Source of the DNA: a virus | DNA length: 45,415 nt | Direction: 5' to 3' (one strand) | IMG/VR virus record: IMGVR_UViG_3300048597_000650 | Coordinates: 1 to 45,415 of that record | In this document: positions 6,492 to 44,457 of the stretch, piece by piece | Layout of the letters: the number at the start of each line of letters is the position of its first letter | Position numbering within the stretch: the first letter of the stretch is position 1 | Position numbers and translations under genes: made by a program | The notes under the pieces: generated by a model | Seen by the model: the letters and a program-made list of their open reading frames with translations, nothing else | What the model was told of the DNA's origin: nothing | Database searches by the model: none

Positions 6492-7702
6492 AGATACCTC
6501 TCCATGTACACTGAACAAATGTCAAGCGAGATGCTCGTTGCCGATGTGTTATTGGAACGCCAGGCGCGATAGGACAACAGGCTTGAAGTTGCTGGTAAAT
6601 CGGTTGTCCAATGTGCGGTTTGCCTAACGTCGTTCTCTAAATCTTCTAGCCAGCCATAAATGTCTGTAGAATACGGCGGCGAGAAAATAGTCAAACAATA
6701 CAGAGTGTTGTCTGTAGGAGTTATAGAGGTGTGGTTTGTGGTGGCTGTACCGGAACCGTCGTTGTTAATGAAAGAGAAAGTAGATTGGCCTCCCAGTTTT
6801 GCAATCCCGAACATATTGGTGATTGTATTTGGCTCAACGTTGCTTGGAACGTTGTTGCTAGTAGAGAATCCTATGAACAGTCTACCATTACCTAAAGTCG
6901 TAACTATGCCAAAATAGACACATAGGAAGAATCCTTGACTAGTCCCTGTTCCTCTTGCAAACTGATTGGCGCCCATGTGTTGCCCGCAAAGATTTCCTGC
7001 GGTTGCTGCAGAGTTATAGCGCAACCTGGTCCGATACTGCAGCCTAGAGCCACCTGCAACTACATTTGCCGTCCCAGCATTTCCAGTAGTCTGCATAGCC
7101 CCCATGCCTAACACTCCCGGCACACTAATCCCGTTCCCAGGCGGTTTCCAAAAAGAGATATCGGCGTGTCTAATCGCGTTCTGTAAGACCTGGCTTTTAG
7201 AAAAAGTACCATTGGCCAGGTGTCTAACTGAAGGCAAATAGCAATCATCAGAAGACCATAGCGCCGACAAACCTGCAGCAGGAGTGACATCACCCAAGGC
7301 TTGATGAGGGGGTGCAGTTCCCAACTGCAAAGACCTGCCCGCACCGCCCCCAGCAGCCTTAATCAAAGCCCCCGAGTCCTGAATCAACTCACCTGTGGTG
7401 GAGTCAAACGTTGCTATCGCATCATCAACAGCCGATGCAGGACCAACAACGTCACCGGAGCCTCCGCCTCCTCCAGGCGCGAAAGATAGCCAGGCTCCAT
7501 CGCCAGTGCAAACGTAGAGCACTCCGGAGTAAAGCCAAAACGAGCCCAGGGACCAGCCGGCCGCGAAGTTGTCACCTCCCGTTGGCGCGGCAGAGGCCGC
7601 CAGGTTATCCTTGACGGCGCTCATCACGCCACTGTTGTTGATCAGCCTCCCGTTAGCAAGGTTGGTGATCTTGATCTGGTCGTCGCGGACGGTCTGGCTC
7701 AT
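6488..7702 (-). CDS. Tail fibre or appendage protein
   Basis: A 404-residue protein. The N-terminal region holds RDDQIKITNLANGRLINNSG, and residues about 75-110 have a glycine run followed by GDVVGPASAVDDAIATFDS, a short element common at the joint of phage fibre proteins. The C-terminal 250 residues are Asn/Thr/Ser/Gly-rich and beta-prone, as expected for a receptor-binding head domain. The bases coding for the C-terminal part (about 6490-7300) are clearly more AT-rich than the neighbours, which suggests that this domain was exchanged. It lies next to two other fibre-type genes. Assignment rests on composition, the joint motif and context. Confidence 0.55.
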   Translation of the reverse strand: MSQTVRDDQIKITNLANGRLINNSGVMSAVKDNLAASAAPTGGDNFAAGWSLGSFWLYSGVLYVCTGDGAWLSFAPGGGGGSGDVVGPASAVDDAIATFDSTTGELIQDSGALIKAAGGGAGRSLQLGTAPPHQALGDVTPAAGLSALWSSDDCYLPSVRHLANGTFSKSQVLQNAIRHADISFWKPPGNGISVPGVLGMGAMQTTGNAGTANVVAGGSRLQYRTRLRYNSAATAGNLCGQHMGANQFARGTGTSQGFFLCVYFGIVTTLGNGRLFIGFSTSNNVPSNVEPNTITNMFGIAKLGGQSTFSFINNDGSGTATTNHTSITPTDNTLYCLTIFSPPYSTDIYGWLEDLENDVRQTAHWTTDLPATSSLLSYRAWRSNNTSATSISLDICSVYMERYL

Positions 7703-7706
7703 TCGA

Positions 7707-8954
7707 TTAGGCCACCAATCCGAACACGGCGATGTCGTCTCCCGTTTCCGGCGCCGTTGCGAAAGTGAGGGTCGTAGACGAGAAGGTGAAGTCGGTGGTC
7801 GGGCGCTGCCTGACCCCGTTGAGCCATACGATAAGACTGGCAGCGGTTGGCGTGCCGCTCATGGTGTAGTTCGTGTTGGATCCATTGACCAGCCCGGTCA
7901 CAGTCTGGGCCAAAAAGCTGACCTTCGAGCCGGTCACCGCATTGCCCGCGATCTTGGCCGTGGTCACATTGGCATCAAGAATTTTGACTGTGGTGACGGC
8001 GTCTGACGACAACTTCGCGGCCGTCACATTGGCATCGAGGATCTTAGCCGTGGTAACCGCGTCTGCCAGGATTTTGACCGCGGTCACCGCGTTGCTGGCC
8101 AGTTCGTTGGCAGTCACGGCGCCCGTGGCGATCTTGGCGGTAGTAACGTTGGCGTCGAGGATTTTGGCCGTCGTGACGGCGTTCGTCCCCAGCTCGTTGG
8201 CAGTCACGGCTCCGGTGGCAATCTTGCCCGTGGTAACCGAGGTGTTTGCCAGTTGAGTAGTGCCAACCCCGGCTGGTTTGATTGAGAACTGGTTGGCCGA
8301 TACGGTCAGCGTTGTTTCGTCCGCCGTATAGGTCGCTCCAGCGCCAAACTGGGCGAAGGTCAAGGCGGAGCCAGAGGCGCCCCCTACCGTGATCGGTGCG
8401 TTGGTGGTCAGGACCCACTGGGTAGTGGCGTTGGCGGTTCCCTCGCCGACCATGACCGCGGTGCCATCGGTGACCTCGGGGTCACCGTCCGCATCGGTGG
8501 CGCGGTCCCAGACGCCGTTTGCACCGGTCCCTAGGGTGGTGACGACATAGATGCCGTTCTGGGCAGCAGTGCTTTGATTTTTCAAAAGCACCCTGTTGCC
8601 GGCAGCAAGGGTGACGCCGTCGAGGGCGTTAGGCATCGCGGTAAACTGCCCCCGAGCAGAAGCTCCCCCCGTCGCAGCGTAGGTGCCAGAGACGTTGGTA
8701 GTTGAGGCGACCCTGACCGGCTGCTTGACTGCCAGGCCGGCTGCCGAGGCTGTGATAGCCGCATCCAACTGGCCTTTGGTAACAGCGTCGGTGGCGGCCG
8801 TCCCATCGGCCAAATTGACGGCCTTGAAGCCACCAAAGTTTCGGTCCGCGGTCATGGTAGCCAGCTTGGTGCTGGCGATAGCGGCCGCCGCGTCTATCTT
8901 CGCGTTGTTGATGGCTCCGTCTGTGATCTGACGGCGTGTAATCTGTACTGACAT
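7707..8954 (-). CDS. Tail fibre with decapeptide repeats
   Basis: A 415-residue protein with a strong AGGAG site before its ATG. The N-terminus (QITRRQITDGAINNAKID) and the next domain, with AVNLADGTAATDAVTKGQLD, are typical of phage tail fibre shafts. Residues about 235-345 consist of eleven consecutive 10-residue units of the form (N/D/G)AVTTAKILD, coded by a 30-base periodic DNA stretch at about 7910-8245. The C-terminal 75 residues contain VWLNGVRQRP, then TLTFATAPETGDDI, a compact beta domain that also occurs in the next gene upstream. This is probably a trimeric fibre; homotrimerisation is inferred from the repeat type. Confidence 0.65.
   Translation of the reverse strand: MSVQITRRQITDGAINNAKIDAAAAIASTKLATMTADRNFGGFKAVNLADGTAATDAVTKGQLDAAITASAAGLAVKQPVRVASTTNVSGTYAATGGASARGQFTAMPNALDGVTLAAGNRVLLKNQSTAAQNGIYVVTTLGTGANGVWDRATDADGDPEVTDGTAVMVGEGTANATTQWVLTTNAPITVGGASGSALTFAQFGAGATYTADETTLTVSANQFSIKPAGVGTTQLANTSVTTGKIATGAVTANELGTNAVTTAKILDANVTTAKIATGAVTANELASNAVTAVKILADAVTTAKILDANVTAAKLSSDAVTTVKILDANVTTAKIAGNAVTGSKVSFLAQTVTGLVNGSNTNYTMSGTPTAASLIVWLNGVRQRPTTDFTFSSTTLTFATAPETGDDIAVFGLVA
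7910..8245 (-). repeat. 30-base periodic repeats coding for decapeptide units
   Basis: Eleven imperfect copies of a 30-base unit inside the fibre gene code for units such as NAVTTAKILD, ANVTTAKIAT and GAVTANELGT. Runs of this kind allow copy-number change by slippage and so variation in shaft length. Confidence 0.7.
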
Positions 8955-23726: not shown

Positions 23727-25183
23727 TAGGACGCCATCCTCTGGCGAATCTGCGGACGCTTCGGCTTGTAGGCATCCGCGGGGACTATGATCTGTCTGGC
23801 GCTGGTAATTTTCACGGTTTGTTCACGTTCGGGGAAGAGCAATGACATCGCCATGATTAGCGCGTCGATGCGATTGGGGCTGTACTTGGACTCCAAGGGT
23901 GACCAATCGGTCATCTCATTTTCGAGCTTCTTCAGGAGGAGCTTGGCCAGGTGGTGAACCCTGTGCTTCTCCCAGAGTCCGGAATACAGCTCGATCCGGC
24001 TCAGCTTGTCTAGTTCCTGAGAGTTGATCTCGTCGATGGGAGGGAGTTCGAATTTCTCCCCATCGGCGACCATCTCGATGTTCCGGCGAACCAGGTTTCC
24101 GCCGCGAACCGTTTCAACTTTTATTCCGTCTACATCAAAGTCTCGGCAGGCCTCGATGAGTGCCTTGCCCCACTCTTCGGCACTACCGTGAACGCTGTAG
24201 TCGCCAAGCACGTAGGCGTGACCATTGGCGCACTTCCCGACAACTACAATGCCGTTCTCGTCGGAGCGACTGTTGGAGCTGATTGCAGGGTCGACGCCCA
24301 CGGCAATCTGTACAAGCGCTGGGGCTTCTTCCACCCGGTCGGCGTCAATCTTAGCTTCCGTCCAATAGGCGCCTTCAACTTCGTCAAGGACTTCGCCCTC
24401 TAACTCTTGCCGACCCATAGTTGTGTCGGCATAAGTCTCCTCCAATTCGAGGAGTGATTCATCAGCCAGGTTGCCGGAGTTTTCCCAGGTCGTTCCGCGG
24501 GTAACGACGATTCGACTCGACTCCCCGGCTTTGGCTCTCTCGAGAAGCTGATTCAAGATCGGGTGTCGCCGCTTGGGCGTCGTCGTTATGATGATCTTCG
24601 GCTTGCCTAGCCGGATGGCTGGAATCAGGAAGTCCCAGCACTTCCTGGAGTTCTTTAGAGCGCATAGCTCTTCGACCCAGAGGGTGTCGAACTGGCCTCC
24701 CCTGAGCAGCTCTGGCTCCTCGGAAGAGAAGTAGGTGAGCTGAGCGCCGTTCTTCCAAACCAGGCGCCGCTTCGAGGATAAAAACCTTGGCTTGTTCCAG
24801 GGCGGGCAAATCTCGAGGATTCCACTTTCACCCTCAACAACCACATCTCGGGCAACTGCCGCTGTTGGGGCGAGAACACATATCCGACGAGCCTCGCCGG
24901 ACTCAACCCTCTCTCGGATAGCCTCGGCAGCGGTTCTTGTCTTCCCGAATCCTCGGCCGGCCATGAGTAGCCAGATGAACCAGGTTAACAAGATCGGTAG
25001 GCACTGCTTGGGCCTTCGCCAGTGCGACCACTCGTAGCGCAGGACTTGCCATTCGTCCTCGGTTAGACTCTCGTAGAACTCTTCTGCCTCTGCAGGCATA
25101 AGGGCCAGTTGCTCTGCCGTCGACATGTTGTCGATGTCGAGCCCGAGGTCCAGGCACTCCTCAAGGGAGTCACCGCTTATCAT
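23726..25183 (-). CDS. terL: Terminase large subunit
   Basis: A 485-residue protein. Walker A motif GRGFGKTR at 76-83, Walker B DTLWVEE at 166-172 with catalytic Glu, and a coupling/motif III segment IIITTTPKRR. The C-terminal nuclease domain begins near AVGVDPAISS (about 294) with the first metal-binding Asp, then a conserved VEWGKALIEACRD region. It is the ATP-driven motor and headful or cos nuclease that packages DNA into the prohead. It overlaps the small subunit gene by 14 bases; ATG at 25183 has an AAGG directly adjacent and ATG at codon 20 is an alternative start. Confidence 0.9.
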   Translation of the reverse strand: MISGDSLEECLDLGLDIDNMSTAEQLALMPAEAEEFYESLTEDEWQVLRYEWSHWRRPKQCLPILLTWFIWLLMAGRGFGKTRTAAEAIRERVESGEARRICVLAPTAAVARDVVVEGESGILEICPPWNKPRFLSSKRRLVWKNGAQLTYFSSEEPELLRGGQFDTLWVEELCALKNSRKCWDFLIPAIRLGKPKIIITTTPKRRHPILNQLLERAKAGESSRIVVTRGTTWENSGNLADESLLELEETYADTTMGRQELEGEVLDEVEGAYWTEAKIDADRVEEAPALVQIAVGVDPAISSNSRSDENGIVVVGKCANGHAYVLGDYSVHGSAEEWGKALIEACRDFDVDGIKVETVRGGNLVRRNIEMVADGEKFELPPIDEINSQELDKLSRIELYSGLWEKHRVHHLAKLLLKKLENEMTDWSPLESKYSPNRIDALIMAMSLLFPEREQTVKITSARQIIVPADAYKPKRPQIRQRMAS

Positions 25184-25805
25184 CCTTGGGTTTCTTGGCT
25201 TCGGGCTTTGCCACTTTGGCCCGAGCTTTGGCGATGGCGTTGGCGGCCTTCAGGGCGGCCTTGGCGACCTTCTCACGGACAGCCTTAACCTCGCCCTCGA
25301 AGTCTCCGAATCCCTCGCCCAGCGTGCCCAGGAGGACTCCGGCAGCCTTGGCCAAGCAGAGCATCGCGCGATCCTGAGAGACAAGTTTAGGAGTCGCCAC
25401 AACATCGCCCTCAGATGTTGTCTGGTAGGTGACGGACTCGAGTAGCATCTTTTGCTCCGGAGTCCATTGTTTGAGCGGCTTAACCCGGAAGGTTTGATCG
25501 TCGTAGATCGACGACCTGTCCACGAAGGCTTGCACTCGCCATCTCTCCATCAGTTGCTGGTGGACGGCGACGTTCAAATCGGCCAGGCCCTTGGTGAAGA
25601 GCCTGCTGATCGCCTTGCGTACGTGAGGAACCTTGCAGAATTCCTCTCCTGCAACCCGAGCCTGCTCGTCCTTCGACCCACAGACTTGCGTGGCCGCGGC
25701 AGCTTTATTCATGTCATTCGCGAAATACGCGGTGACAAACTCAATCTCGTGAGTGGTCCACGGACCCTCGACGCCGTGATGGGAAGATTTCTTGGTTTTT
25801 GCCAT
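25170..25805 (-). CDS. terS: Terminase small subunit
   Basis: A 211-residue protein. Sequence FVTAYFANDMNKAAAATQVC and SKDEQARVAGEEFCKVPHVR match the N-terminal DNA-binding helices of the terminase small subunit family (x-AYF-x-N-x-x-K-A-A-x-x-x-G). The C-terminal third is Ala/Lys-rich with repeated KA/AK. It recognises viral DNA for packaging and works with the large subunit. I chose ATG at 25805 with GGGGGA about eight bases upstream, rather than TTG two codons earlier. It is the first gene of the late operon. Confidence 0.85.
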   Translation of the reverse strand: MAKTKKSSHHGVEGPWTTHEIEFVTAYFANDMNKAAAATQVCGSKDEQARVAGEEFCKVPHVRKAISRLFTKGLADLNVAVHQQLMERWRVQAFVDRSSIYDDQTFRVKPLKQWTPEQKMLLESVTYQTTSEGDVVATPKLVSQDRAMLCLAKAAGVLLGTLGEGFGDFEGEVKAVREKVAKAALKAANAIAKARAKVAKPEAKKPKDDKR

Positions 25806-25846
25806 TGTCAAGTCCCCCAGGGGGTTGGGGATTTTTTGCGGCGACG

Positions 25847-25942: not shown

Positions 25943-25974
25943 TACCCCACAAGCGGTTTATTGAGGTAATTTCA

Positions 25975-26005
25975 TGTTAACATATTTGTAAAATTTTGTT
26001 AACAT
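25975..26005. repeat. Two TGTTAACAT sites, 22 bases apart
   Basis: Identical 9-base sites at 25975-25983 and 25997-26005, each centred on the palindrome GTTAAC. They are 22 bases apart, about two helical turns, inside a block (25971-26010) that I count as 32 of 40 A/T. This fits a pair of operators or an AT-rich unwinding or activator site upstream of the late promoter. Confidence 0.5.
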
Positions 26006-26070
26006 TTTCCGCTTGACATTGGTGCTGGTCGAGCCTGTGCCGGGCTTCTAGGCGCGAAGGCCCTGATATG

Positions 26071-26165: not shown

Positions 26166-26903
26166 TTAGAGGAATGTCCTCAGGCTGTCTTCGCGAATCT
26201 CCTCCAGGCCCCTGCGCAAACTCGGTCTCCGACGCAGAATGTCAAGTATCATCGCGACGTAATGACCAAGTCGGACGACTCCAGCCGAAGCAGCCATTGA
26301 AGTGAGTGTGGGTTTCTCGTTGGTTCGTAAGCAAAAGCAGATCCGCTTGCGTTGCTTCCACTGGCTTGACAGGTTCTTGCCGTCCACCTCTGGGGCTTGG
26401 CGCCTGGCCCATTCAAGGCAAAGCCTTATGAAGTCTGACTGTGTCATCCGATATGCAACCATGCTCGCCTGGAGCCAATCGTCAACCTCCCGGGTTATCG
26501 TCGCGTAAATGGGCGCGGCCATTGGGTTGATCGTCTCGCTCTTCTGTCCGTCTGCATACCGCTCGGGAAATCCGGGCCAGGCCTGGTCCATCCTGATGGG
26601 GTTTGGAGGGACATTCTCTCTTCGCGGCCCCTTGTTGCCACTCCCGCCGCCTCGCTCCCCGCGCTTGCGGTCCTCGTGCCAGCACTCCAGGATCTCCCCT
26701 CGACTCGGGCCGCCGGACTTGCTCTCGGGCTGCTCCTCGAAGTAGATGGTGCCGCACTCTGGGCAGTCCACCCCAACAGGTCGGCCACCAACCGGGCCGA
26801 ACTCCATCGGGACTTTGCCACCGGGCCCGACCTCTAGCGGGTCTAGCCAGCACTGGGGGCAGGTGGTTTCGTGTCGCTCCTCTGCCGCTGCAACCTCGGT
26901 CAT
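26166..26903 (-). CDS. Zinc-finger and double ribbon-helix-helix-like regulator
   Basis: A 245-residue protein, the last gene of the early operon. Residues about 13-50 hold two CxxC motifs (CPQC, then CPEC), a likely zinc ribbon. A basic, Gly/Arg-rich linker follows (about 85-105). Residues about 135-165 (IYATITREVDDWLQASMVAY, then FIRLCLEW) and about 190-225 (ICFCLRTNEKPTLTSMAASA, then VAMILDIL) each read as a beta strand followed by two helices, the ribbon-helix-helix pattern of MetJ/Arc repressors. Placed next to the late control region it may bind there. Start at 26903 (ATGA overlap; GGCGGAAGC upstream); a longer start adds nine residues. Function is inferred. Confidence 0.55.
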   Translation of the reverse strand: MTEVAAAEERHETTCPQCWLDPLEVGPGGKVPMEFGPVGGRPVGVDCPECGTIYFEEQPESKSGGPSRGEILECWHEDRKRGERGGGSGNKGPRRENVPPNPIRMDQAWPGFPERYADGQKSETINPMAAPIYATITREVDDWLQASMVAYRMTQSDFIRLCLEWARRQAPEVDGKNLSSQWKQRKRICFCLRTNEKPTLTSMAASAGVVRLGHYVAMILDILRRRPSLRRGLEEIREDSLRTFL

Positions 26904-27577
26904 ACCGCTTCCGCCCGCTGCCTTAGGCAATAGTGGTTATCCAGGATGCGCCACAACTGATCGGCCAGGTCAGCAGGTACACCCTCGTTGACCAGCACAT
27001 GATGCGCCTGGACGGCCTGGTGCTCGCTGGCGTGCCCGTTCAGGGGTTCATACCCTGGTCGCAGGATACGGAATACCACATCGCAGACATCGCCCTCGTT
27101 ACCGAAGCAAACGTCAGAGGCGACCACGATCTGCTTCCCGGTCTGCAGAACTCGGGATCGCCATCGGTCGATCCAGTATCCCGGCGATACCCGCTCCCGA
27201 AAGATCTCGGTGCCCACGACCTGCATCAGCCGGCGCACTTCGGGGAGGTGCTTTAGATCGTCCCAAGAGTACCTCTCCAGCAGCTTTCTGATCGGCGATG
27301 GAGGTCGAGGGTGTCCGAAATCGATCAAGGGATTGATGATCTCAATGGTGTCCCGGAGTTCGTCGGCGAAGGCTACCTTGGCCGCGTCATAGCGCTCCAG
27401 GATGAAGGCCGCAAGTGTATCCTTGCCCACCTGAGCATAGCCACTCAGGCCGACAACAAAAGGGAATCCGTCTCCACACATAACCATCGTAATACCTCGG
27501 ACAAATTGTCCCACCCAGGGTGACGGACAGTAAAGAAGGCGATCAGGATACATTTTCACACTTGGATGGCATGCCAT
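26900..27577 (-). CDS. Deoxynucleoside monophosphate kinase
   Basis: A 225-residue protein. GLSGYAQVGKDTLAAFI is a P-loop close to that of T4 gp1-type dNMP kinases (GxxxxGKD(T/S)), followed by AFADELRDTIEIINP and the conserved RRLMQVVGTEIFRERVSPGYWI with a late VVASDVCFGNEGD. It phosphorylates dNMPs for DNA synthesis and fits thyA in the same operon. The start at 27577 has a GGGAG site and follows the upstream stop directly. ATG at 27487 (GAGG site, 195 residues) gives an N-terminus closer to the family and leaves a 90-base leader with a palindrome, so it is a real alternative. Confidence 0.75.
   Translation of the reverse strand: MACHPSVKMYPDRLLYCPSPWVGQFVRGITMVMCGDGFPFVVGLSGYAQVGKDTLAAFILERYDAAKVAFADELRDTIEIINPLIDFGHPRPPSPIRKLLERYSWDDLKHLPEVRRLMQVVGTEIFRERVSPGYWIDRWRSRVLQTGKQIVVASDVCFGNEGDVCDVVFRILRPGYEPLNGHASEHQAVQAHHVLVNEGVPADLADQLWRILDNHYCLRQRAEAV
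27499..27511. promoter_or_regulatory. Operator-like inverted repeat upstream of the kinase alternative start
   Basis: GGACAA-A-TTGTCC, a perfect inverted repeat of six plus six bases around one base, 12 bases before ATG 27487. A 14-base sequence, GACGGACAGTAAAG at 27522-27535, lies just upstream and recurs at 34719-34732. Together these suggest a regulated leader if the kinase starts at 27487. Confidence 0.3.
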
Positions 27578-28401: not shown

Positions 28402-31400
28402 GGCCGCCCCTCTTCACCTCTTGGTCCCAGACGTGGAAGATCTCGAACATCTCCTCCGGGTACTTCCGCGGGCCCTGGTTGGTCTCAACGAGGATCATCC
28501 CATCGCGGGCGTAGCTAGGCTTCTTGAGGGGTCGAACCCCGGGACCCAGCAGACGATCCCAGGGTGCTGGGTCGGGCGGTGCCTGCGGAACCTCGCGGAA
28601 CCTCTCCCCCTTTATACAAAATCCTAATTCGCCTTGAATATATTTCTCCTGATCCAATTCCTCGCGCGCGCGCATGCATGGAGGGTCAGAAAAAGGTTCC
28701 GCAGTTCCGCACACTGGGTGCTCTAGCGAGGAATCATAAGGCTTTGCGCTTGCGGAACCTCCCCTAAATGAGGTTCCGCGAGGTTCCGCAGGTTCCGCAG
28801 GTTCCGCATCCCGAGCGACCCAGTAGACCCGCCCATTTCGCCCCTGCCGGTAGTACATGTGTACTCCTCTCCGAGACTGCTCCACATGCCCGTTGAGCCA
28901 CTTGCCCATCTTGGTCACCACCGACCGAGAGGACAGCAGTTGACCCTCTTCGATCCTGATGGTGTTGCCCAGGTAGTCCACGGTCTTCCCGTAGCGGTCC
29001 ATTGTGCGCAACAGTAGGGCTGCCTCGGCCGCTGTGAACTCCACCCTGTCTTTGAACTTCTCCGATAGGAACTCGAAGAAATCGTTAGCTTCCTGGTCGT
29101 CGAATGCTGCTCGGGATTGGGCGGCCTTGTAGTTGGTCATGAACCCCTCGATACCGGCCCAGTCCAGGATTCCGCCAAGGACATCGGCCCAGCTTTCAAA
29201 GGAGTCGAAGCGTCGCGGAGAGCCATCTTTACCCATGCACGTCTCAGGCCTCAGAGTCTTCCAGAGCGGCCTCCCAGCCTGGATCCAGCCTCGGACTAGC
29301 ACCCTTACCGCCCAGGCCATACGCCCCAGGTTGGCAGCAGTCCATTCCTCAATCTCGCCGTTCTTGAACGCCTCACGGTCTTCTGGTTGGTGGTGGATCT
29401 TGATGTAGTAGCAGCGCCTGGCGGTGTCCTCGTGCAGCTCCAGATTATTGCCGGTGGCCACCCATGTCTTGTTGTTGGTCAGGGTCAGGGAGCGCTGAGC
29501 GAAGAACTCTCGAGGAGAGAAGGACGGGCTGGTGAGCAGCCTGTCTAGCATCTGGTTATCCAGGGCGTGACCGCGCATGTTGTCGGCCAGCACGGCTTCA
29601 GCGGCGGAGTTGAGGCACTTGGTAAGCTCCTTGCTCCATTCTACGTTATTGTCTTTCTCGGGTGGGTTCAGGTCGTCTGGCCTGGCGCCAGTCCCAACAA
29701 GGATGGCAGACCTGGCCAGCTTGGACTTACCGGCATTCCTTCGTGAGGCCTGGATCATCGCCAGCGGAGACACGGAGCCCGGCTTCATTTGGCTTCTGGC
29801 CGTGGGCTCCAGCATCAGAGCGATGGTATTGGCGAGAGAGGCAGAGCAAGCCTCACCGTCCCAGCTAAGCCCGTCCTTGGCGAACTTGAAGTCTACTAGC
29901 ATCTCATCCCTAAAGAGCTTAACAGCCTCAGCTCCGTGCATCGGCGTGATGGTTTCTGGGATAGGCGGAACGGTAACTCCCAGAGCGGGCTCATAGATGG
30001 TCTTAGTGTTGGGGTCGTAGCCGGGCTGCGTGCGGACATTGCCCTCATAGTCCATAACCGGAAGGGCGGTCACGCGGCGGAGCTGGGGCAGGTTTAGCAC
30101 CTCGTTAGCGCTGTGGATCGATGCTATCAGTTCGGGCGATGGTGATGATTCTGTCACAATCCAGGTGTCCTCATCTTTCTTTTTCTTGCGCTGAAATCGA
30201 ATGCGCTGCGTCAAAATGGCCTTGAAGAGCTTCTCGGTGATGGGCTGAATCACGGCGCCTCTTTGATCAGCTAGCGCCGGCAGGACGCGAATGATTTCTG
30301 TATCTCTTGCGAAGATGAAGGGAGGATCGTTGATCCGCTGGACAGCATCGGCCGTGTCCTCCATCTCGCGATTGAGATCGCCATTCAGGCTCACAATCGG
30401 TTTGGGAGGTGCAAAAATGAGAATCTGAGCTGTCTGAGCTTGGCCAAGAGATGGTTCATTTGTACTAGCTTGCCCAAGGGTCTCTAGCCAGTCCAGATTC
30501 TCAGATGCTTCAACCAAGGTGTCATGTTGGGAATCGAACATGACACCTTGCGACACCTCCGAACTTGAATACATGACACCTTTTGAGGTGTCATGAGGTG
30601 TCATGTTGGGCCCAGAAGGTGTCATGTATTCAAGTTCATGACACCTCATGACACCTTGATCGGGCCCCGAAGGTGTCATGTTCGATTGGTCGCATGACAC
30701 CTCAAGCTCCATTTGGGCCTCTTTGCGGAACCTCGCGGAACCTCCAAACTGATAGGTTCTCTGGATCCCTCGCTTGAAAATGAGCGTTCCCTGGTCAACT
30801 TGAGCCTTCAGCCAGGGGCCGATCTTGGTGGCCGATCCCTTGTTGCCCTCACCGATCAATACCTCGGCGGCCTGGCCGGCTGTGAAGGGCTTGAGGCCGA
30901 AAACGCCCTTGAGGCGACCAAGATTTTCCGAGTGGGGTCTTTGGTCCCAGGGCACTTCCAGGGTCTCGAGCCAGTCTAGAGACTCGGTGGGCAGCTCCTT
31001 GTTCTCCTTGGAGTATTTGCCGCCGAACCTCAAGGCGTTATTGAGCTTCGATCTCAAGCCTTTCTCGCTCCAAGGGGGCTGACAGGTCTCGTTCCAGTCT
31101 ACGAGCAGAGACCACGCTTCATCCTGGGTTATACCGAACTCTAGCAGGTTGCAGGCGGTCAGGAAGGTGTGCTGGTCGCCGCCCTGACCCTCGATGGCTG
31201 GCTCGCGTCTTAGAATCCATTCGGAGGCCCTGTTATACGGTGCGGTTCTTTTGCCGCTATCTGCCGATGGTGATCGGTTGATCGGCTCGGAGCGCAGAGG
31301 GTGTTGTGGCAATTCTTCAACAACGGGCCACCAGCTGGGGTCGTAAACGGGCAGAGTGGCTATCTCGGCTGGGTCCCATTGGCGCGTGGGCTCATAGGTG

Positions 31401-31840
31401 ACCCCTGACTCGTGAGGGCTCCCTGGCCCGACCACAAAACCCCCATCAGCTCGGACGTCGAGGGCTATCTTTTGACCTGGCGCGACTTTGATACGAGCCC
31501 TGTTTGGGTACCTGGCGCCGTCTAGCGGGTGCCGATAGTACCTGTGAACGCCTCGGAAGCCGTCGTCTCGCCGGCCGGCCAACACAACCCAGGGTGTTTC
31601 CGGGAGGTTCTGCTTAGCCCATTCTTCGGCTTCTGGATTGTCCGTATCAACGATGACAACACCTGAAACCCCGCCAGTTATTATGCCCCAACGCTCGTAG
31701 ACCGCCGACCACTCGGCGACCTGATCGAGAGTGGGTCTTTTTGTCTGATAGTCCGTCCAGGTCTCAAGCCACGGCCGTTTGGCGCCTGGATAACAAGGGA
31801 CAACACTGAAACCGAAGTCCGTATGGAGCCGGAGAAACAT
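28388..31840 (-). CDS. Primase-polymerase/helicase with embedded iteron repeats
   Basis: An 1150-residue protein. Residues 1-170 form an archaeo-eukaryotic prim-pol domain: GFSVVPCYPGAKRPWLETW, then VVIVDTDN at about 61-68 with paired Asp and SPHESG at about 141. Residues about 215-275 (DQHTFLTACNLLEFGITQDE, then GLRSKLNNALRFG) resemble the primase C-terminal PriCT-1 domain. Residues about 620-950 hold an ATPase of the phage helicase type, with SRRNAGKSK at about 702 (the first P-loop residue is Ser, not Gly/Ala) and VATGNNLEL near 800, which fits an SF3-like arrangement. Low-complexity linkers at about 379-441 and 1011-1085 are coded by DNA repeats. It probably primes and unwinds for replication and binds its own gene. 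Confidence 0.8.
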   Translation of the reverse strand: MFLRLHTDFGFSVVPCYPGAKRPWLETWTDYQTKRPTLDQVAEWSAVYERWGIITGGVSGVVIVDTDNPEAEEWAKQNLPETPWVVLAGRRDDGFRGVHRYYRHPLDGARYPNRARIKVAPGQKIALDVRADGGFVVGPGSPHESGVTYEPTRQWDPAEIATLPVYDPSWWPVVEELPQHPLRSEPINRSPSADSGKRTAPYNRASEWILRREPAIEGQGGDQHTFLTACNLLEFGITQDEAWSLLVDWNETCQPPWSEKGLRSKLNNALRFGGKYSKENKELPTESLDWLETLEVPWDQRPHSENLGRLKGVFGLKPFTAGQAAEVLIGEGNKGSATKIGPWLKAQVDQGTLIFKRGIQRTYQFGGSARFRKEAQMELEVSCDQSNMTPSGPDQGVMRCHELEYMTPSGPNMTPHDTSKGVMYSSSEVSQGVMFDSQHDTLVEASENLDWLETLGQASTNEPSLGQAQTAQILIFAPPKPIVSLNGDLNREMEDTADAVQRINDPPFIFARDTEIIRVLPALADQRGAVIQPITEKLFKAILTQRIRFQRKKKKDEDTWIVTESSPSPELIASIHSANEVLNLPQLRRVTALPVMDYEGNVRTQPGYDPNTKTIYEPALGVTVPPIPETITPMHGAEAVKLFRDEMLVDFKFAKDGLSWDGEACSASLANTIALMLEPTARSQMKPGSVSPLAMIQASRRNAGKSKLARSAILVGTGARPDDLNPPEKDNNVEWSKELTKCLNSAAEAVLADNMRGHALDNQMLDRLLTSPSFSPREFFAQRSLTLTNNKTWVATGNNLELHEDTARRCYYIKIHHQPEDREAFKNGEIEEWTAANLGRMAWAVRVLVRGWIQAGRPLWKTLRPETCMGKDGSPRRFDSFESWADVLGGILDWAGIEGFMTNYKAAQSRAAFDDQEANDFFEFLSEKFKDRVEFTAAEAALLLRTMDRYGKTVDYLGNTIRIEEGQLLSSRSVVTKMGKWLNGHVEQSRRGVHMYYRQGRNGRVYWVARDAEPAEPAEPRGTSFRGGSASAKPYDSSLEHPVCGTAEPFSDPPCMRAREELDQEKYIQGELGFCIKGERFREVPQAPPDPAPWDRLLGPGVRPLKKPSYARDGMILVETNQGPRKYPEEMFEIFHVWDQEVKRGGHGDE
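28585..28807. repeat. Iteron family B (GAGGTTCCGC) flanking an AT-rich segment
   Basis: Copies of GAGGTTCCGC or its reverse complement occur at 28585-28594 and 28595-28604 (tandem, reverse), 28694-28702 and 28703-28710 (forward, second partial), 28752-28761 (reverse) and 28770-28779, 28780-28789, 28790-28798, 28799-28807 (forward, tandem). Two more are at 30725-30744. Between them, 28611-28660 is 70 % A/T by my count and 28663-28680 is 18 bases of alternating pyrimidine-purine. Iterons plus an unwinding element fit a replication origin. Confidence 0.6.
30517..30702. repeat. Iteron family A: ten perfect copies of AGGTGTCATG
   Basis: Forward copies start at 30517, 30586, 30596, 30617 and 30671; reverse copies (CATGACACCT) start at 30539, 30572, 30637, 30647 and 30693; a partial GACACCT is at 30552-30558. 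Forward-reverse pairs at both ends have starts 22 bases apart. The repeats are read in different frames (GVM, MTP, HDT) in the linker of the primase gene, so selection is on the DNA. Similar arrangement to the iterons inside the lambda O gene. Best single candidate for an initiator-bound origin, or an autoregulatory site. Confidence 0.75.
30561..30637. repeat. 22-base perfect inverted repeat within iteron array A
   Basis: Arms 30561-30582 and 30616-30637 are exact reverse complements over 22 bases, with a 33-base spacer that contains two tandem forward iterons. It could form a cruciform or a long hairpin in single-stranded DNA or in the mRNA. Confidence 0.75.
30725..30744. repeat. Tandem pair of iteron family B next to array A
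   Basis: Two abutting GCGGAACCTC copies (30725-30734, 30735-30744), identical to the pair at 28585-28604 and 23 bases beyond the end of array A. Links the two repeat families at one locus. Confidence 0.7.
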
Positions 31841-42103: not shown

Positions 42104-42634
42104 CTATTGGTTGAGGTTTGTAGTTGGCGGTTTGTAGTTGGCGCGGCCAGGCTTCCAGGTCTTTTTCTTCAGGATGGCGTGGACGGTGGAGTGATGAATC
42201 CCGTACATCCTCGCTATCGACCTGAGAGACCCGCCGATGACGGCCAAGCGGCGTATATGAGCGACCTGGTCAGCGGTCAGCCTGGAAGCGGCGGACTGCT
42301 CGCCCCTGGGCTGCCTGCCATGCCTTCTCCGGTCGCCGGCATTAGTGCGGTCATTGCCCCAGCGAAGATTCTCGATCCGGTTGTCGGTTGGGTCGCCGTT
42401 AAGATGACGAACGAGGTTGCAGGTGGACCGGCGGCGCGGCCCCCAAGCAAGGATGACCGCCCTGTGAATCCAAAGCTTGCGCTGCTTTCCAGCGGTGACG
42501 GTCCAGACATAGAGATGACCGTAATCCGGCTTGGCAATGAGCCTCAACTCATGCCCGCGGCGGCCCCAAACGCGACCGTCAGATGTGCAAGAGTATCCTG
42601 GAAATCCGGGCACGGGGCGAAGGTCGGGCTTCAT
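42104..42634 (-). CDS. HNH endonuclease with NUMOD4-like and HTH domains
   Basis: A 176-residue protein. N-terminal PVPGFPGYSCTSDGRVWGRR is a NUMOD4-like motif (xGFxxYxVSxxGxVxS). The central HNH_3-type core is HRAVILAWGP, then CNLVRHLNGDPTDNRIENLRW (His, Asn and Asn in RHLNGDxxDNRxENL). A C-terminal HTH follows (SIARMYGIHHSTVHAILKKK). A homing-type endonuclease, mobile within phage genomes; it may also nick competing phage DNA. ATGA overlap with the ParB-methyltransferase gene. A 14-base tandem duplication lies at the end of the gene. Confidence 0.8.
   Translation of the reverse strand: MKPDLRPVPGFPGYSCTSDGRVWGRRGHELRLIAKPDYGHLYVWTVTAGKQRKLWIHRAVILAWGPRRRSTCNLVRHLNGDPTDNRIENLRWGNDRTNAGDRRRHGRQPRGEQSAASRLTADQVAHIRRLAVIGGSLRSIARMYGIHHSTVHAILKKKTWKPGRANYKPPTTNLNQ
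42115..42142. repeat. 14-base perfect tandem duplication at the 3-prime end of the HNH gene
   Basis: GGTTTGTAGTTGGC at 42115-42128 and again at 42129-42142. Because 14 is not a multiple of three, the duplication changed the C-terminal frame; the protein now ends in PPTTNLNQ rather than a reading beyond the repeat. Confidence 0.9.
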
Positions 42635-44457
42635 GCTGGCCTCCGGAACGTATAGACATACTCATGTTTGAAAATCTGGAATCCATATCGGAGGGCTCTC
42701 CAGCGCCAAAGGTTGGCGTTCTTCCCCTTGGCCTTCTCGTTGCCCTGAATGTCCTTGATGTTCTTGGCGACAAGTCGGAAACCGCACGCCTGCATCTTCC
42801 GGGCGCACAGAGCGCTTAGTTCTATGGTTTCGCTCTTGTCCGGTATATCGCCGATAACCAAGGTCGCGAACTGGCCGGGGCGGAGCGATTGATATGCGTT
42901 ACGAGCTACGCTGTAGAAGCTATGGAGGAACTCTTCCAGGTTTTCGGCTGACGAGAGGTCAGACAGATTCTGGCCATTCGTGAATTTGATGATGTCGAAG
43001 TACGGAGGATGAAGGAAGACGTGATCGACGCCTTCCAGATTGCGTCCGGCGCCATGAGAGAAAAGGCATTTCTGAATTTCTCGCGGCGTATTCGCGGCAG
43101 AGCTATCGCCCTCAATGACATGGATTTGGACGTTTGCGGGGTTTTCGAGCTGATCCAGCAGAGCCCAGGCTTTATCCACCATCTCGGACTGAAGCTCCAC
43201 GCCGATGATGTGCCGCCCAAGCCGGAGACACTCGACCATGGTTGTCGCGCCGCCAAGGAACATGTCCAGCACGATGGCGCCTTCTTTGGTGTAACGGCGG
43301 AGCTGTTGGTCAACGATTTGCGGGATGAAGTTGCCGTGATAAGAGCCGTCGCGGCCCGGCCCCTTCCATCGGGCCCCTAGATTCCAAAGAGTGTCGGTGA
43401 TCAGGTCTTCGTTGGATTCTTTCCAGCCTGACTTGCTGAGGTCCAAATCATGGAAGGGGTGAGGCTTGGCGGCCGGCTCTGCCTTCAGGCCTTCATGGAT
43501 CTGAGCCAGTTCGGGCGGCATTGGTCGATCCGGCGGCTCGATGTCGGCAAACATGCCGGGAGGCTCTTCGGGGGACTCTTCGGGGACGGCTGAGCAGTCT
43601 TCGCACAAGTCAGACCCTGGCTCGGCCTCAGGAAGATTGCACTCTTGGCAGACGGCCTTGCCTTCCATCGCTGCAGCCTCTTCGGTGTAGCACCCGCAAC
43701 AGGTATCGCCACAGCGGTCACAGGCCTCCTCTTCGTCATCATCGATGACCAGGCGGGAGGCCCGTTCTATGTGGCGATCGCAAATCTCGTCGATGCTTTC
43801 TTCGGGCACTGGGGCAGCGACTTCCGCCTTCAAGTCGGCCGCGACCGTGCCAGTTGAAATGTTTTCCTCTTTGGCGATGGCGCGGACGCTTTTCCCCTCG
43901 GCTTTTTTGGCCTTGACTCTCTCGCGACGCTCGGAGAGTTCGGCTTCGTCGGGCTTGCTGGAGGGATGACTCTTGCCGTCTTCTCCGGTAATTCTTGACC
44001 GTTCGGCTCCGATTGATATCGGACCTGAACGGTTCTTGTCTTGGCGGACGGTGAAGTCACTGATTCCAAGACTCTTTGCGATAGCCGTGTTGCTAAGCCC
44101 CTTGCCGGCCAGGTCCGCCACAAGCCTTTGTCTGGCCTCCTTATCCATATGGCGACGCAGGAGATTCAGGTTTATGGCCCGCTGTCTCTCCTGTTCGGGT
44201 GAAAGCCCAAGGATTTCGTCCTTCCTAACTTCGGCCCAAACCATGCCCAGTTCGCGACACGCGCGAAGCCGATGCTGCCCATCAATGATGGCAATCGTGC
44301 CGTCTTCTCGAGTCGTATAGACAACCGCATAAGTAAAGCTCCCGGTGGCCCCGATGTCCGCCTTCATCAAGGCGAACTCGGCTTCCGACATAGGCGGAAA
44401 GATGTCCGCATACGGCAATTGGAAGACAGTGCCACAGTCCAAGGTGATGGTCTTCAT
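42631..44457 (-). CDS. ParB-like/zinc finger/DNA methyltransferase fusion
   Basis: A 608-residue protein. Residues 1-100 are ParB/sulfiredoxin-like (IAIIDGQHRLRACRELGM at about 54-70). Two HTH segments lie at about 115-145 (GLSNTAIAKSLGISDFTVRQ) and 185-210 (SVRAIAKEENISTGTVAADL). Residues about 240-290 are Cys-rich (CDRCGDTCCGCY; CQECN; CEDC), possible zinc sites. Residues about 355-605 are a class-beta DNA methyltransferase: LDMFLGGATTMVECLRLG is the SAM-binding FxGxG loop, and LHPPYFDIIKF at about 483 is the (D/N/S)PP(Y/F) motif with His first. Possible role: marking phage DNA against host restriction. Catalytic motif is non-canonical. Confidence 0.7.
   Translation of the reverse strand: MKTITLDCGTVFQLPYADIFPPMSEAEFALMKADIGATGSFTYAVVYTTREDGTIAIIDGQHRLRACRELGMVWAEVRKDEILGLSPEQERQRAINLNLLRRHMDKEARQRLVADLAGKGLSNTAIAKSLGISDFTVRQDKNRSGPISIGAERSRITGEDGKSHPSSKPDEAELSERRERVKAKKAEGKSVRAIAKEENISTGTVAADLKAEVAAPVPEESIDEICDRHIERASRLVIDDDEEEACDRCGDTCCGCYTEEAAAMEGKAVCQECNLPEAEPGSDLCEDCSAVPEESPEEPPGMFADIEPPDRPMPPELAQIHEGLKAEPAAKPHPFHDLDLSKSGWKESNEDLITDTLWNLGARWKGPGRDGSYHGNFIPQIVDQQLRRYTKEGAIVLDMFLGGATTMVECLRLGRHIIGVELQSEMVDKAWALLDQLENPANVQIHVIEGDSSAANTPREIQKCLFSHGAGRNLEGVDHVFLHPPYFDIIKFTNGQNLSDLSSAENLEEFLHSFYSVARNAYQSLRPGQFATLVIGDIPDKSETIELSALCARKMQACGFRLVAKNIKDIQGNEKAKGKNANLWRWRALRYGFQIFKHEYVYTFRRPA

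Follow-up and report, generated by a model that had tools for sequence, protein, structure and literature searches.

A probable iteron-type replication origin inside the reading frame of a phage primase-helicase, with a second array in an interdomain linker

Ten exact copies of a 10-base motif, AGGTGTCATG, are crowded into the coding sequence of a linker of the primase-helicase of the viral record IMGVR_UViG_3300048597_000650, which was analyzed over its whole length of 45,415 bases (hereafter the window). The locus raises the question of what such an array (array A) does within a replication gene, and whether the gene carries its own origin of replication. The first-pass annotation had proposed that array A is either an initiator-bound origin or an autoregulatory operator; it contained neither the second array at the 3' end of the gene (array B) nor the B-type doublet located beside array A, both of which are described here together with the domains of the encoded protein (Table 1).

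Table 1. Features of the primase-helicase locus, in coordinates of the window
Feature	Coordinates	Strand	Basis
Primase-helicase gene, 1150 aa	28388..31840	-	ORF; contains arrays A and B
Prim-Pol domain, residues 9-164	31349..31816	-	Pfam PF09250, E=4e-19
Winged-helix-like segment 1 (tentative), residues about 311-372	30725..30910	-	weak similarity to C-terminal domain
Helicase domain, residues about 580-935	29036..30103	-	phrog_10537; tblastn and blastp against relatives
C-terminal winged-helix-like domain, residues about 919-1013	28802..29086	-	aligns with the domain conserved at the C-terminus of relatives
Array A: AGGTGTCATG, ten exact copies (five on each strand) and a degenerate one	30517..30702	both	
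Doublet of B-type sites in tandem, 2 x GCGGAACCTC, next to array A	30725..30744	+	exact 20-mer
Array B: GCGGAACCTC-type sites in C-terminal tail	28585..28807	both	repeat scans; layout as in relatives and pWTY27
Candidate DNA-unwinding element (AT-rich, within the central gap of array B)	28611..28660		

The primase-helicase and the repeats in its gene

Prim-Pol was the sole Pfam match of the protein and also weakly matched the PDB chains 1rni, 1ro0 and 3m1m of pRN1 ORF904 (E about 1e-3). The PHROG matches were phrog_10537 (residues 534-921, E=5e-42) and primase families, and no homology to lambda O was detected by these searches. Close relatives of the primase-helicase were absent from the collections searched, in which the best match had about 35% identity and covered the helicase part. 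The motif TKMGKWLN of the C-terminal domain aligns with TRLGKAL of the relatives, and AlphaFold run without an alignment predicted for this domain the order H-E-H-H-E-E at low confidence (pLDDT 53). Segment 1, likewise modeled without an alignment, gave a low-confidence fold; it weakly matches the same profile columns as the C-terminal domain, with 12 of 38 residues identical in a weak pairwise comparison. The fold search with both low-confidence winged-helix models was uninformative. Segment 1 and array A are together flanked by the copies of a direct repeat (30480-30508 and 30960-30990, core identical in 16 of 17 bases) encoding [ES]-[LN]-LDWLETL, which may serve protein interaction or be the scar of a duplication.

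The exact copies of AGGTGTCATG in array A, at 30517, 30586, 30596, 30617 and 30671 on the plus strand and at 30539, 30572, 30637, 30647 and 30693 on the minus strand, were all found where the first-pass annotation had placed them, and the 45,415-base record contains no further exact copy. A degenerate eleventh site, AGGTGTCGCA, occupies 30549-30558 on the minus strand, and with one mismatch allowed the motif has 11 matches against 2.2 expected (100 shuffles, maximum 5). In 500 codon shuffles of the gene no 10-mer exceeded 3 copies within 190 bp, as compared with the 10 copies observed. Two structural claims of the annotation were also borne out: the starts are 22 bases apart in both outer pairs (30517+/30539- and 30671+/30693-), and the array contains a 22-nt perfect inverted repeat (30561-30582 and 30616-30637), which proved to be nested in 25-nt arms at 96%. 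Since the copies of AGGTGTCATG fall in all three codon frames and on both strands, selection apparently acts on the DNA rather than on the protein, as the annotation had supposed from translation in several frames.

Searches for array A outside the window returned nothing of its kind: blastn against phages gave no match, and an exact search of viral contigs for the tandem A unit found none. A search with the A inverted pair matched only actinophage-like promoter operators with the core TGTCATGACA and an unrelated layout, and this candidate was rejected. In the six actinophage-like contigs concerned (L017, L018, L019, L020, L021 and L022) palindromic TGTCATGACA operators are repeated at an apparent promoter and are likely repressor sites unrelated to array A. 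None of the relatives carries an array at the position of the A linker, and the linker itself has no detectable homologue; for residues 203-394 the apparent Vibrio phage matches can be trusted only ahead of the linker, at which these phages have no array.

Array B lies directly 3' of the part of the gene encoding the C-terminal domain, still inside the ORF, with sites at 28585+, 28595+, 28693-, 28752+, 28770-, 28780-, 28789- and 28798-, plus weaker ones. The 20-mer of the B doublet occurs exactly three times in the window, twice in array B and once 23 bp from array A, with no occurrence in shuffled sequences. The AT-rich stretch enclosed by array B in its central gap ranks second in AT content among stretches of 30-50 bp in the genome, and for an interval of the array's length AT-richness of this order has p=0.009. 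AT content peaks in the genome at 25957-26007, between the ORFs 25170-25811 (small terminase) and 26166-26930, where there is no repeat array. In a genome-wide repeat scan arrays A and B were the two strongest repeat clusters of the window, far above the rest. A direct repeat cluster at 7851-8300, inside the ORF 7707-8954, is much weaker than both. Neither array coincides with a GC skew switch or with a strong terminator or promoter signal, and no DnaA boxes were found.

Repeat clusters behind related helicases

Single-protein and two-sequence scans yielded almost no relatives, which were found by means of a DNA pattern for the helicase motif GGI[LV]-x-x-AG-x-x-GF. The viral set comprised 74 loci identified by this pattern, all of them helicase homologues by tblastn; the prokaryotic set comprised 97 stretches, of which 80 were taken as loci and 58 were confirmed. 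Repeats were scored as repeated 8-mers on both strands in every 250-bp window of each locus. A strong cluster was present within 900 bp after the helicase in 46 of the 63 testable short-tail loci (our window included), and the best cluster of the locus lay within this distance in 42 of 62 testable relatives, where under 7 (6.8) were expected; after collapse at 60% identity, with our window left out, the proportion was 17 of 29 versus 3.2 expected. The loci from prokaryotic genomes, which represent many bacterial phyla and one archaeon, gave 42 of 51 versus 6.8 expected. To the weakest of these cases an ordinary terminator hairpin can contribute; most scores are derived from 5-14 copies.

Many relatives resemble the window in that their array falls within the ORF. 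Relatives that carry a fused DNA polymerase, with tails of more than 450 aa, mostly lack the array, as do the large Caulobacter-type phages. The unit of helicase, C-terminal domain and array was found behind Toprim, Prim-Pol and TOTE-type primases, and this variation of the primase in front of the array assigns the array to the helicase module. Carrying an array at the 3' end may also be a habit of a primase joined to a helicase of another type: a strong both-strand array of 12 copies of GCGTGACA (6824-7133) lies at the 3' end of p101, a Prim-Pol/RecA-like gene of Rhizobium phage 16-3 (L113).

The best-resolved relatives follow a common plan. On either side of a central gap of roughly 64-100 bp stands a tandem group of two or three sites spaced by 8-11 bp, the two groups being mirror images, and outer sites follow at a further distance of about 38-50 bp; this spacing is kept between relatives while the sequence of the motif changes. 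The plan is seen in L042 ('> 20 > 17 < 38 > 9 > 9 > 64 < 9 < 9 < 38 > 16 < 12 <') and, in nearly perfect form, in the Streptomyces plasmid pWTY27 ('> 11 > 16 < 40 > 9 > 72 < 9 < 40 > 16 < 11 <'), and is less regular in L010, L024 and L025. RepA of pWTY27 (H70), which is homologous to the helicase of the window (tblastn, 27% identity, E=2e-21), was footprinted on the iteron region of the plasmid (PMC3583192). Array B ('> 9 > 9 > 10 > 19 < 50 > 8 > 99 < 10 < 9 <') fits the plan except that the outer sites are missing on its right-hand side. Array A, which has no long central gap, does not fit it; a strong AT-rich stretch is lacking there as well. Two arrays in one locus are found in the L042/L167 lineage, about 2 kb apart and with the variant motifs AGGTTCCCAC and AGGTTTGCAC; the second array lies around 12543-12675 in L042 (reverse-complement orientation) and around 5396-5521 in L167.

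Roles of the two arrays

The conserved position after the helicase, together with the mirror layout common to the relatives and footprinted pWTY27, points to array B as the replication origin of the phage, an assignment that we hold, on comparative grounds, to be probable with good confidence. The locus very probably belongs to the class of iteron origins of initiator helicases that lie inside the reading frame, with an extra array in the present case. For array A the chances of being an initiator-bound element are even or slightly better. It lies in the initiator gene, a weakly winged-helix-like segment precedes it much as the C-terminal domain precedes array B, the neighboring B doublet ties it to the same initiator, and the related L042/L167 lineage has two arrays as well; hence we read it as an auxiliary or second initiator array. 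Its role is open to doubt since no relative has it and its linker has no recognizable counterpart. The explanation that we favor as reasonably probable is, thus, that the gene carries its own origin, with array B as the core and array A as an auxiliary or second array bound by the same initiator. Against it speak the lack of a counterpart of array A in the relatives and its departure from the common plan, the missing skew switch, the incomplete right side of array B, the location of the most AT-rich stretch elsewhere and the weak link between segment 1 and array A. As to the first-pass annotation, its initiator-bound origin stands with respect to the gene and was probably centered on the wrong array, since it is array B that holds the conserved position. 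An autoregulatory operator has become less likely: array A is about 1.1 kb into the gene, and no A site (0-1 mismatch) is present upstream of the gene start at 31840.

Other explanations concern mainly array A. The origin might reside at array B only, array A being bound for control, partition or another purpose by some other protein, be it a phage repressor, a host factor or the ParB-like/methyltransferase fusion. Such a division would agree with the motif and layout of array A, which differ from those of array B, and with its absence from relatives; moreover, the second array of the L042/L167 lineage, AGGTTTGCAC, is intergenic, two letters off the in-gene AGGTTCCCAC, and precedes an ORF with a ParB-like start, and ParB-like and DNA methyltransferase matches are likewise found in a protein of the window (42631-44457). 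However, array A lies inside the initiator gene close to a B-type doublet, and no A-type sites (0-1 mismatch) occur near any promoter or near the ParB-like gene, so that we regard this explanation as unlikely. That array A is the main origin and array B a secondary or decaying one appears improbable: it does have more copies, ten of them perfect, and no other place in the genome gives so strong a repeat and fold signal, but the conserved position, the layout and the AT-rich gap belong to array B.

Array A could also have no origin role at all, being a palindromic element grown by inverted duplication, an mRNA hairpin or an internal translation start. Its nested inverted repeats take in the spacers, its RNA fold is strong (z=-9), and an in-frame ATG lies within three of the gene-strand copies of AGGTGTCATG. 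Yet any both-strand iteron array folds strongly anyway, five copies have the opposite orientation, and AGGTG lies too close to the ATG to act as a normal ribosome-binding site; a dispersed palindromic element was rejected as the identity of array A, which occupies a single locus and has no second genomic copy of the kind such an element would be expected to leave. We consider this explanation highly improbable. A further arrangement, also rather unlikely, assigns to the protein two DNA-reading domains, each with its own array encoded right behind it (array A behind residues 311-372, array B behind residues 919-1013). These would form a bipartite origin within the frame of the initiator, probably derived from the fusion of primase and helicase modules that each brought an array, and worked by pairing of the arrays in a DNA loop.

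If, as we prefer, array B is the core of the origin and array A an accessory to it, the protein would bind the mirror-image B iterons through its C-terminal domain, and two facing helicase rings would assemble over the AT-rich gap (28605-28690). The opposed rings would presumably melt this gap, whereupon the fused Prim-Pol could prime synthesis. Array A, 1.9 kb from array B, might be an auxiliary site, serve in loading or copy control, or constitute a second origin.

From the comparison of relatives there follows a sequence rule for locating origins, namely to look just behind the C-terminal domain of the helicase, often still in the reading frame, and the rule applies to a large set of phages and mobile elements, most of which are unstudied. 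The layout is kept while the motif and the type of primase change, which makes the co-evolution of initiators and iterons directly testable. Should the protein also read array A, the window would present an unusual two-array origin within one gene.

Comparison with known systems

In phage lambda iterons are located within the coding sequence of the initiator gene O, as four direct iterons with an AT-rich region and not as mirror arrays, and the O protein is neither a primase nor a helicase. The parallel with lambda drawn in the first-pass annotation is fair as far as an origin inside an initiator gene is concerned, and extends to the AT-rich region, which in the window lies within array B; RepA of pWTY27 and SaPI Rep are closer precedents. 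The alpha protein of phage P4 is a Toprim primase-helicase whose winged helix binds repeats in two separated arrays (ori and crr). P4 resembles the window in having a primase-helicase, with a winged helix that in the window is putative, and two separated arrays in one genome, and differs from it in the type of primase; the P4 arrays are not known to lie in coding linkers. A description of alpha is given in PMC4234260.

ORF904 of plasmid pRN1 combines Prim-Pol, helicase and winged helix in one protein, as the protein of the window probably does, and an essential stem-loop is located downstream; specific binding was not detected (PMC4234260). Both systems have an inverted-repeat structure 3' of or at the 3' end of the gene, which is one stem-loop without iterons in pRN1 and consists of multi-copy iterons in the window. 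In SaPI Rep and SCCmec Cch2 it is the C-terminal domain that reads the iterons, which follow directly downstream of the gene (PMC7581432). The likeness to them is functional, that of an initiator helicase whose iterons lie at the 3' end of the gene that encodes it, although their known arrays are intergenic and those of the window lie in an ORF. Unlike the window, pWTY27 has separate primase and helicase genes and non-coding iterons, and no second array was seen in its primase-helicase region. In common with array B it has short both-strand iterons, arranged as mirror images immediately 3' of the helicase gene (PMC3583192), and its motif GTGGGAACC resembles GCGGAACC of array B.
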